Shown here piece after piece: positions 62,123-64,000 of a stretch of DNA of 64,000 nt. Numbering within the stretch: the first letter of the stretch is position 1; the number at the start of each line of letters is the position of its first letter. The notes below the pieces were generated by a model. The model did no database searches. It saw nothing but the letters and a program-made list of their open reading frames with translations, and was not told where the DNA came from. Position numbers and translations under genes: made by a program. This DNA comes from Paracoccus saliphilus (lineage in GTDB: Bacteria; Pseudomonadota; Alphaproteobacteria; Rhodobacterales; Rhodobacteraceae), in the NCBI RefSeq assembly GCF_028553805.1, contig NZ_CP067140.1, positions 1,612,001-1,676,000 of the forward strand. The letters are read 5' to 3'.

Positions 62123-62761
62123 ATGAGCATGGCAAGCGACGCCCGGTTCTGGGATCGGACGTCCCGGAAATACGCCAAATCCACGATTTCGGATATGCCG
62201 GGATATGAACGCACATTGGACCGGACCCGAAAGCTGTTGGGATCAGGCGGTCGGGTGCTGGAACTGGGCTGCGGGACCGGCACGACCGCGCTCCGGCTTG
62301 CGGAGGCGACGCAACGCTATCTGGCCACGGATGTTTCCACCGAGATGATCAGGATCGCCGAAGAGAAACACGCGGCCAGCCCTGTTTCGCCGCTGACCTT
62401 CCGCATAGCGACGGCGGATACGCTTGAGTCCGAAACCGGGCAGTTCGACGCTGTTCTGGGGTTCAACTACCTTCACCTGGTTCGCGACCTGCCGGGAACG
62501 CTCCATCGAATCCATGCAATGCTCGTGCCCGGAGGTTTGTTCATTTCCAAGACGCCCTGCCTTGGGGATATGAACCCGCTGATACGGCTTGTCTTGTTGC
62601 CTGTCTTGCGGGCGATCGGAAAGGCCCCTTATGTCGAGGCTTTCCGAAGCACGGAGCTGTGCGAGCTGCTTTCTAGCTCCGGTTTCGATATCGCCGCCAC
62701 GGAACATCACGCAACCAAGAGCGAAGTCGGACGTCCCTATATCGTCGCGCGGAAGCGATGA
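62123..62761 (+). CDS. Class I SAM-dependent methyltransferase
   Basis: A 212-aa methyltransferase. Motif I is VLELGCGTGTTALRLA, motif II lies in YLATDVSTEMIRIAEE, and post-I FDAVLGFNYLHLV follows. The pattern suits small-molecule methyltransferases of the UbiE/Methyltransf_11 type. ATG 62123 has AGGAG nine bases upstream. It stands alone after a 120-bp AT-rich gap. Substrate unknown. Confidence 0.8.
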   Translation: MSMASDARFWDRTSRKYAKSTISDMPGYERTLDRTRKLLGSGGRVLELGCGTGTTALRLAEATQRYLATDVSTEMIRIAEEKHAASPVSPLTFRIATADTLESETGQFDAVLGFNYLHLVRDLPGTLHRIHAMLVPGGLFISKTPCLGDMNPLIRLVLLPVLRAIGKAPYVEAFRSTELCELLSSSGFDIAATEHHATKSEVGRPYIVARKR

Positions 62762-62786
62762 GGCAGAGCAGGCTTCCTGCCGGATA

Positions 62787-62815
62787 TTGACGATGCCTGA
62801 GCCGCAACCTAGACA
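62787..62815 (+). promoter_or_regulatory. Sigma-70-like promoter of the tyrA-like gene leader
   Basis: TTGACG (62787-62792) and TAGACA (62810-62815) are separated by 17 bp. Transcription would begin close to 62822, the first base of the leader reading frame, so the peptide might be translated from a leaderless transcript. The -10 element matches only three of six consensus bases. Confidence 0.4.
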
Positions 62816-62821
62816 TGGGGC

Positions 62822-62872
62822 ATGATGATGTTCACGCAGGCCTTTCCTTCCTTCTATTATCCGCTCCCCTAG
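62822..62872 (+). CDS. Phe/Tyr-rich candidate leader peptide
   Basis: A 16-codon frame encoding MMMFTQAFPSFYYPLP. Five of sixteen residues are aromatic, with tandem Tyr codons at 62855-62860. The stop codon (62870-62872) falls within the first hairpin. The next gene is a prephenate dehydrogenase-like enzyme, so a Tyr/Phe sensing leader is the natural reading. GGGG precedes the triple ATG. Too short to be certain. Confidence 0.45.
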   Translation: MMMFTQAFPSFYYPLP

Positions 62873-62964
62873 GAGCGGCAGGCATTCGTGCGACCGCTGC
62901 AACTGCCAGTGGTCGAATATGAGCATCAGTAGCGATCCTGGCCCCCTTTCTGAAAGACCAGGAT
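62861..62964 (+). promoter_or_regulatory. Candidate attenuator and ribosome-binding-site hairpin
   Basis: Segment 1:2 is CCGCTCC (62861-62867) with GGAGCGG (62872-62878). Segment 2:3 is AGCGG (62874-62878) with CCGCT (62894-62898). Segment 3:4 is CGACCGCTG (62891-62899) with CAGTGGTCG (62907-62915), one G-U pair. These are mutually exclusive. A separate hairpin ATCCTGG (62935-62941) / CCAGGAT (62958-62964) includes the AGGA ribosome binding site of the downstream gene. No T-run follows 3:4, so control may be translational. Confidence 0.45.
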
Positions 62965-63693
62965 ATGACACGCCCCTTCATGATCATCGTTGGCTTCGGT
63001 GCATTTGGTGAATTGGTCGCAAGGATACTTGCCGATCATGCGGATATCGCGATCAATGACCCCTCGCCGAAAGCTCAGGATAAAGCCCGTGCTCTGGATA
63101 TTGCTGTCGTCGATGTCTCTGCTGTTGCTCGGGCCGATTTGATTGTCCTCGCTGTGCCGGCATCCGGTCTGGAGGATTGTCTGACCGGATTGTCCGCATT
63201 TCTGAGATCGGGACAGGTCATGATCGACACCTGTTCGATAAAGGAAGAGCCCGTTCGGCTTATGCGGGCGATATTGCCCGAAACAGTGGAGATTGTTGCG
63301 ACCCATCCCATGTTCGGCCCGCAAACTGCCAGGAACGGCATATCAGGGCTTCAGATGGTGATTTGTCCGGTGCGGGGACAGAAATGGCGTCCGTTGGCGC
63401 ATTTTCTTCGTTCTGTTCTGGGATTGCAGGTCCTGGTCACGACCCCTGAAGAGCATGATCGGCAGGCGGCCGTCACTCAGGGCCTGACGCATCTGCTTGC
63501 CCATGCGCTCGGCAATTTTGAGCATTCCCCGAAAATCAGAACCCGAAGCTTCGAGTTGCTGATGGAAGCTGTCGCGATGGTAAGCAGCGATGCTCCGGAA
63601 GTGTTCGAAGCAATCGTTCGAGGGAACAGGTACGTTCCCGAGGTCAGGAGAATCCTTTTGAACGCCCTTGAAGGGAGCAACAAGACAACCTGA
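62965..63693 (+). CDS. Prephenate/arogenate dehydrogenase-like protein
   Basis: A 242-aa NAD(P)-dependent dehydrogenase of the TyrA fold. The cofactor motif is VGFGAFGELVARIL. The conserved segments IDTCSIKEEPV and THPMFGPQTA, whose His is a known TyrA catalytic residue, follow. The C-terminal helical half is shorter than in full TyrA proteins (about 280-310 aa), so activity is uncertain. It would oxidise prephenate or arogenate toward tyrosine. The region is lower in GC than the rest of the window. Confidence 0.7.
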   Translation: MTRPFMIIVGFGAFGELVARILADHADIAINDPSPKAQDKARALDIAVVDVSAVARADLIVLAVPASGLEDCLTGLSAFLRSGQVMIDTCSIKEEPVRLMRAILPETVEIVATHPMFGPQTARNGISGLQMVICPVRGQKWRPLAHFLRSVLGLQVLVTTPEEHDRQAAVTQGLTHLLAHALGNFEHSPKIRTRSFELLMEAVAMVSSDAPEVFEAIVRGNRYVPEVRRILLNALEGSNKTT

Positions 63694-63840: not shown

Positions 63841-64000
63841 ATGGGAAAGATTACGCCGGTTCTGATGGCTGGTGGCTCCGGGACGCGGCTTTGGCCGGTT
63901 TCGCGCAAGAGCTTTCCCAAGCAGTTCACGCCGCTTTTGGACAATGGGTCCTTGTTCCAGGCCTCAGTCCAGCGATTATCCGGGCCGGATTACAGCGGGC
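63841..64000 (+). CDS. Mannose-1-phosphate guanylyltransferase, partial (5' end only)
   Basis: Makes GDP-mannose for polysaccharide synthesis. The first 53 codons include the nucleotidyltransferase signature [22 protein letters not shown] and continue off the window. ATG 63841 is used; ATG 63826, five codons earlier, is in frame and equally possible. The 147 bp before it contain no gene. This begins a probable exopolysaccharide region to the right. Confidence 0.9.

Follow-up and report, generated by a model that had tools for sequence, protein, structure and literature searches.

A TyrA-like dehydrogenase gene of Paracoccus saliphilus (plus strand, 62965 to 63693 of the window, the whole 64,000-nucleotide stretch of DNA analysed) follows a short reading frame with tandem tyrosine codons and a series of conserved helices, the last of which spans its ribosome binding site. 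We read this arrangement, with a probability of about 0.7, as a ribosome-sensed tyrosine attenuator whose main effect would be on how translation of a second, free-standing TyrA gene is initiated. An attenuator had been proposed here in a sequence-only reading, and that interpretation is supported by comparison with related loci; the regulatory response itself is what we infer from it.

The encoded protein was characterized by profile, PDB, and genome searches. It matches PF02153 in Pfam above the cut-off (E 2.3e-18), falls just short of it for PF20463 (21.6 of the 22 bits needed; E 2.7e-4), and scores below the cut-offs of the NCBIfam prephenate dehydrogenase models (best, 127 bits against 310). 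In the PDB, it is closest to 5t9f, 5t95, and 5t9e (E ≤1.7e-22), three chains that bear the name 'Prephenate dehydrogenase 1', and the earlier description of the gene as prephenate dehydrogenase-like agrees with the PF02153 and PDB matches, through which the end product of the predicted enzyme would be the amino acid sensed. At one aligned position, two of the three PDB chains have D and one has N; because the window protein has D, and this is presumably the position that separates plant arogenate enzymes (D) from prephenate enzymes (N), our guess is that it is an arogenate dehydrogenase. The genome has one further TyrA-like place (L002, 29% identity), with a longer open frame of 337 amino acids that follows, as judged by eye, a hisC-like aminotransferase frame; the window gene thus reads as an extra, free-standing second TyrA. 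The gene is accessory in the genus, where 35 of 125 genomes have a match at E ≤1e-15. It lies between a methyltransferase gene (62123 to 62761) and a mannose-1-phosphate guanylyltransferase-like gene of which the window holds the beginning (63844 to 64000); neither has an evident link to tyrosine.

The leader frame (MMMFTQAFPSFYYPLP, stop codon TAG; plus strand, 62822 to 62872), predicted to be translated, carries the putative sensor, the tandem Tyr codons TAT TAT, at 62855 to 62860. A frame with tandem Tyr codons ahead of a hairpin whose stem takes in the stop codon had been described from the sequence, and it is confirmed here. In a first survey of 93 related loci (L001 and L003 to L094), a leader pattern that favoured Tyr finds the frame in 85; the other eight are L047, L088, L090, and L091 (matched in part or with little sequence upstream), L089 and L093 (matched in part), L057 (a decayed leader), and L082 (none seen). 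A Tyr-blind definition, with an ATG 33 to 40 nt past a TTGAC-like box learned from the same loci and a frame of 12 to 19 codons ending 60 to 200 nt before the match, was applied to 138 related loci and finds leaders in 122, which reduce to 111 distinct ones. Four of the 138 loci (L102, L153, L154, and L156) were bound to have a leader because an RNA model had brought them in. The 16 misses are the same eight loci, L092 (leader present, box TTGAA), L124 (upstream sequence identical to that of L082), and L141 to L146, whose TyrA proteins are only 34 to 39% identical.

Tandem Tyr codons stand near the stop in 104 of the 111 distinct leaders, where chance would give 0.95 at an assumed 2.5% Tyr and at most 5 in 1,000 trials. 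They are written TATTAT (59 leaders), TATTAC (43), or TACTAT (2), and the first of them lies five (19 leaders) or six (85) codons from the stop. Among the seven exceptions, a single Tyr is present in L029, L033, L046, L067, L076, and L111 and none in L080 (Microvirga), in which CAT TGC replaces the TAT TAC of relatives and the sequence still allows helices 1:2, 4:5, and 5:6. Seven additional loci all have the leader, five with the Tyr pair and two (L158 and L160) with a single Tyr, and it is present in all 35 same-genus genomes that carry the gene (30 plus 5). The peptide frame and its repeated end-product codons are thus conserved in orthologues. Sensing of Tyr or Phe had been suggested, and the conserved signal is Tyr; a Phe co-signal is unsupported, Phe making up 7.9% of leader residues with codons that have, by eye, no fixed place beside segment 1.

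Upstream of the leader, a -35 box (TTGACG, 62787 to 62792) and a -10-like box (TAGACA, 62810 to 62815) on the plus strand give the layout TTGACG-N17-TAGACA-N6-ATG, and in 83 of the 85 loci the first base of TTGAC stands 35 to 38 nt upstream of the leader start codon. The 85 loci form four groups by the sequence around the stop: A (18, including the window), B (16), C (42), and D (9). A joint test, asking for TA 16 to 18 nt past a TTGAC-like box and at positions -14 to -10, succeeds in 64 loci, and the 21 misses include 14 of group B and 4 from Methylobacterium. From the usual spacing of a start site from such boxes, transcription is predicted to start at or beside the leader AUG, and the leader frame is probably leaderless. 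A simple promoter scan leaves this promoter unlisted and gives instead one inside the leader, which is weighed below.

Six segments on the plus strand account for the helices between the Tyr codons and the gene. Segment 1 (CCGCTCC, 62861 to 62867) pairs with segment 2 (GGAGCGG, 62872 to 62878, containing the G of the TAG stop), which can pair instead with segment 3 (CGACCGCTG, 62891 to 62899) as AGCGG/CCGCT. Segment 3 also pairs with segment 4 (62905 to 62915) as CGACCGCTG/CAGTGGTCG, using 62907 to 62915, and GCCAG of segment 4 (62905 to 62909) pairs with CTGGC (62938 to 62942) of segment 5 (62935 to 62942). An overlapping part of segment 5, ATCCTGG (62935 to 62941; 4 nt in common), pairs with segment 6 (CCAGGAT, 62958 to 62964), so that helix 5:6 spans the AGGA right before the start codon at 62965; this AGGA is just 1 nt from the ATG, which we count against the reading. 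Helices 1:2, 2:3, and 3:4 would be mutually exclusive, with the sensing codons beside or in segment 1, and segments 2, 3, 4, and 5 each take part in two helices in 98%, 100%, 99%, and 69%, respectively, of the 85 loci. Helix 4:5 was missed in the sequence-only reading and would compete with helix 5:6, which hides the ribosome binding site.

Folded alone, 62800 to 62985 reaches a z of only -1.74 against shuffled sequences, 9 of 200 of which do equally well or better, and the evidence is therefore taken from conservation rather than from one fold. Pairing of segments with their own rather than foreign partners at 43 dereplicated loci gives z values of 6.9 for 1:2, 4.1 for 3:4, 5.3 for 5:6, and 2.6 for 4:5, and 3.3 (P = 0.0012) for 4:5 in the 21 loci of groups A and D, although kinship among sequences inflates such covariation tests. 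The control pairs 1:5, 2:5, 3:6, 4:6, and 2:4 give P values of at least 0.10 on all 43 loci, and 2:4 gives 0.044 in group A alone. Within groups, 1:2 has P values of 0.034 (A), 0.33 (C), and 1.0 (D) and is invariant in B; 3:4 has 0.057 (A), 0.022 (B), 1.0 (C), and 0.60 (D); 4:5 has 0.012 (A), 0.009 (D), 0.93 (B), and 0.55 (C); and 5:6 has 0.007 (A), 0.001 (C), 0.85 (B), and 0.18 (D). Because the within-group results are patchy, the 1:2 signal lies largely between groups. In an alignment of 44 loci, helices 1:2 and 3:4 are paired in 86.5% of cells, against 79.6% for shuffled alignments (0 of 500 as high) and no more than 57.9% for slid ones, with both-side changes in 7 of 17 pairs; one 1:2 pair is CG in 16 loci, UA in 15, AU in 10, and GU in 2. 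Helix 2:3 is conserved (87.9% of cells paired) but does not covary, with an own-versus-foreign z of -1.2 on the 43 loci and no double changes in the alignment. Thus, of the three competing stems and the site-masking stem first proposed, 1:2, 3:4, and the masking stem covary over the whole set, and 2:3 is conserved but does not.

The partners of helix 4:5 change together, from GCCAG/CTGGC in the window to GTCAG/CTGAC in L014, GCCGG/CCGGC inside the L086 helix, and GTCGGCGG/CCGCCGAC in three Methylobacterium loci. In the window's lineage, this helix probably provides the connection to the masked site; against the model, it is weak in groups B and C. The loop of helix 5:6 in group C holds a strongly conserved TGCCGGGCGGCA, which the model can do without and for which the CCC in the loop of 3:4 is a possible partner. 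Speculatively, loops may contact each other in groups B and C.

We propose that transcription begins at the leader AUG or beside it. Given ample Tyr-tRNA, the ribosome would reach the stop codon, helices 1:2, 3:4, and 5:6 would form, and the hidden ribosome binding site would keep the gene off. With scarce Tyr-tRNA, the ribosome would stall at the Tyr codons and cover segment 1, leaving segment 2 to pair with segment 3 and segment 4 free to capture segment 5 (GCCAG with CTGGC), so that segment 6 and the ribosome binding site would be released and the gene turned on. Both the direction of switching and the response to Tyr are thus predictions of the model. Helix energies in the window are -12.8 (1:2), -6.1 (2:3), -14.4 (3:4), -5.1 (4:5), and -9.0 (5:6) kcal/mol, and the last of these, the predicted off-state helix, covers positions -7 to -1 of the start. 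The best 5:6 helix is very weak in several group A loci (-0.6 in L006, -1.3 in L007, and -1.7 kcal/mol in L013).

Equilibrium folding with the footprint of a stalled ribosome removed fails to open the site, with a mean unpaired value of 0.28 to 0.29 over the 85 loci, two of whose start codons have since been corrected, and the window value, at an automatically chosen site, is 0.66 in all four states. Because equilibrium folding shows no opening upon stalling, a kinetic, co-transcriptional argument is needed. With segment 3 treated as occupied, the site in the window opens (0.45 before, 0.65 after), and the region of segment 5 takes up 0.76 of segment 4 by pairing. When segment 4 is freed, the site gains more than 0.1 in openness at 6 of the 85 loci (5 of 18 in group A, 0 of 16 in B, 0 of 42 in C, and 1 of 9 in D) and loses more than 0.1 at three (two in A and one in B). 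On this modelling, in which the window opens and no locus of B or C does, the relay is plausible for the window's lineage and unproven for groups B and C.

The same Tyr codons could instead control transcription termination, intrinsic or Rho-dependent, with the ribosome binding site not hidden. The classic 1:2, 2:3, 3:4 geometry would suit such an output, and the Rhodobacterales cysS attenuator is of the terminator kind (PMC8632094). However, a U-run follows hairpin 3:4 in none of the 85 loci, a terminator scan finds no terminator-like site in 62700 to 63000, and helix 5:6, just ahead of the gene's start, is preserved with covariation across the set. Since hairpin 3:4 lacks a U-run throughout the 85 loci, the output is probably translation, and we regard termination as the unlikely alternative for the set as a whole, although a Rho-dependent form may operate. 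Among the distinct leaders beyond the 85, in which T-runs were sought with one pattern, T-runs resembling intrinsic terminators stand right behind 3:4 in L138, L154, and L156, with four T in L150 and L151, so that some lineages may use termination; no T-run is seen behind 3:4 in L147 to L149 or L152, from the genus of L138.

Two further explanations keep the conserved sequence and change what it is for. An arrest-peptide switch, in which the nascent ...YYPxL itself would stall the ribosome upon a small molecule, would account for the Pro and Leu that are often kept behind the Tyr pair, for the group C peptides being mostly alike, and for peptide ends that are kept with one or no Tyr in L029, L033, L046, L067, L076, and L080. 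It is improbable given how the codons vary: in group B, the variable codon differs in its first two bases (81% and 93%) and keeps its third in 16 of 16 loci, and in group C there is variation in the last codon (73% and 50%), yet the A before TAG is kept in 42 of 42. The residues after the Tyr pair thus follow the stem, and the residues preceding it differ by eye among groups. Alternatively, TATTAT could serve as the -10 box of a promoter, with the frame merely incidental, and TTCACG-18-TATTAT at 62831 to 62860 is indeed the only promoter-like match listed in 62700 to 63000. We consider this highly improbable: the 43 TATTAC leaders among the 104 lose the last T of such a box, the distance of five to six codons to an in-frame stop is kept, and so is the TTGAC upstream of the leader ATG. 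A Tyr-codon attenuator acting mainly on translation thus remains our preferred reading.

Leaders are found in Rhodobacterales, Methylobacterium, Microvirga, Aquamicrobium, and one Acetobacteraceae bin. In a tree of 61 hand-picked proteins, rooted at the midpoint and with L002 as a very long branch, six leaderless relatives from the class form one supported group (99/99), L082 and L057 are nested among leader-bearing proteins as apparent losses, and the leader label changes four times, as few as in 0 of 500 shuffles. In at least two of the leaderless loci, L141 and L142, the gene begins by eye directly after an aminotransferase-like frame. L057, in Ruegeria halocynthiae, is a second TyrA copy with a decayed leader in which segments 2 to 4 are left, and L078 of the same strain has a leader. 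Pseudovibrio ascidiaceicola L063, L064, L090, L091, and L092 are multiple copies or contig-end pieces in one genome, L063 and L064 being identical in the leader region.

An RNA model of the element, R1, has this place as its sole strong match in its own genome (E 9.2e-16); the next match (6.9e-4) is distant from both TyrA-like places, and five others have E values of at least 0.04. Against 385 genomes of the class at an E of 0.01, R1 gives 10 matches, of which the window, L102, L103, and L105 precede TyrA-like genes. The matches L104 (E 6.3e-6) and L106 to L110 (E 5e-4 to 0.0023) were considered as elements before other genes; the stretches read around them contain no TyrA-like frame, and they look like chance. 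A protein search of the same 385 genomes finds 11 TyrA-like genes, five with a leader, and R1 recovers four of the five, missing the one in genome G146. Against 199 genomes of another order at an E of 1e-4, five of six matches (L103, L153, L154, L155, and L156) precede TyrA-like genes, and the sixth, L157 (E 5.4e-5), has no TyrA-like gene behind it. Rfam has no matches in the window and two in 62700 to 63100 that are far under the curated scores.

Amino acid attenuators mostly act on transcription, and to our knowledge tyrosine-sensing leader-peptide attenuators stand outside the classic set. In ermC-type translational attenuators, stalling in a leader frame exchanges helices and frees a hidden ribosome binding site, the signal being an antibiotic acting via an arrest peptide; the element described here would expose its site by a similar helix exchange, although its signal would be uncharged tRNA-Tyr and its route the proposed 4:5 relay. 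Attenuation through covering of the ribosome binding site is, as a general idea, already in print (PMC4833913). According to PMC7298713, Sinorhizobium meliloti trpL, the attenuator of trpE(G), has a leader frame of 14 codons and an RNA that begins at the leader ATG, and it thus shares with our element (for which that start is predicted) an alphaproteobacterial leader frame with ribosome-sensed amino acid codons, although it senses Trp and uses a transcription terminator, whereas the codons here are Tyr and the main set is without a terminator. The uORFC-8-2 frame before cysS in Rhodobacterales comes from the same order and likewise has tandem sensing codons, at positions 14 and 15 of a short frame, but it precedes a different gene, senses Cys, and has an intrinsic terminator with a U-run (PMC8632094). 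The main text of that article does not contain 'prephenate' and has tyrA only within one reference title. Also near is the attenuator predicted upstream of Agrobacterium tumefaciens hisHb-tyrA, taken from a transcription-attenuator database (PMC1173090, Table 7); it too would attenuate a tyrA-containing unit in an alphaproteobacterium, although the locus is another one, an operon, and the article's main text does not contain 'leader peptide'. The terms sought are also absent from the text of PMC2965389 and PMC12218461. No description of a Tyr attenuator of this gene was found in the open-access literature, and a prediction in older subscription papers is possible.

More tentatively, and at rather less than even odds, a leaderless Tyr-codon frame would drive a six-segment relay (1:2, 3:4, and 5:6 against 2:3 and 4:5) in which segment 4 mimics segment 6, the segment of the ribosome binding site; control by the amino acid would thus fall on translation, not transcription, in an element that has been remodelled in several families of alphaproteobacteria and carries a terminator in some of them. 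A conserved, probably leaderless, and apparently translational attenuator on an accessory TyrA paralogue would be a clean test case for how stalling reaches a ribosome binding site about 100 nt off, and it suggests how these bacteria may summon spare tyrosine synthesis.
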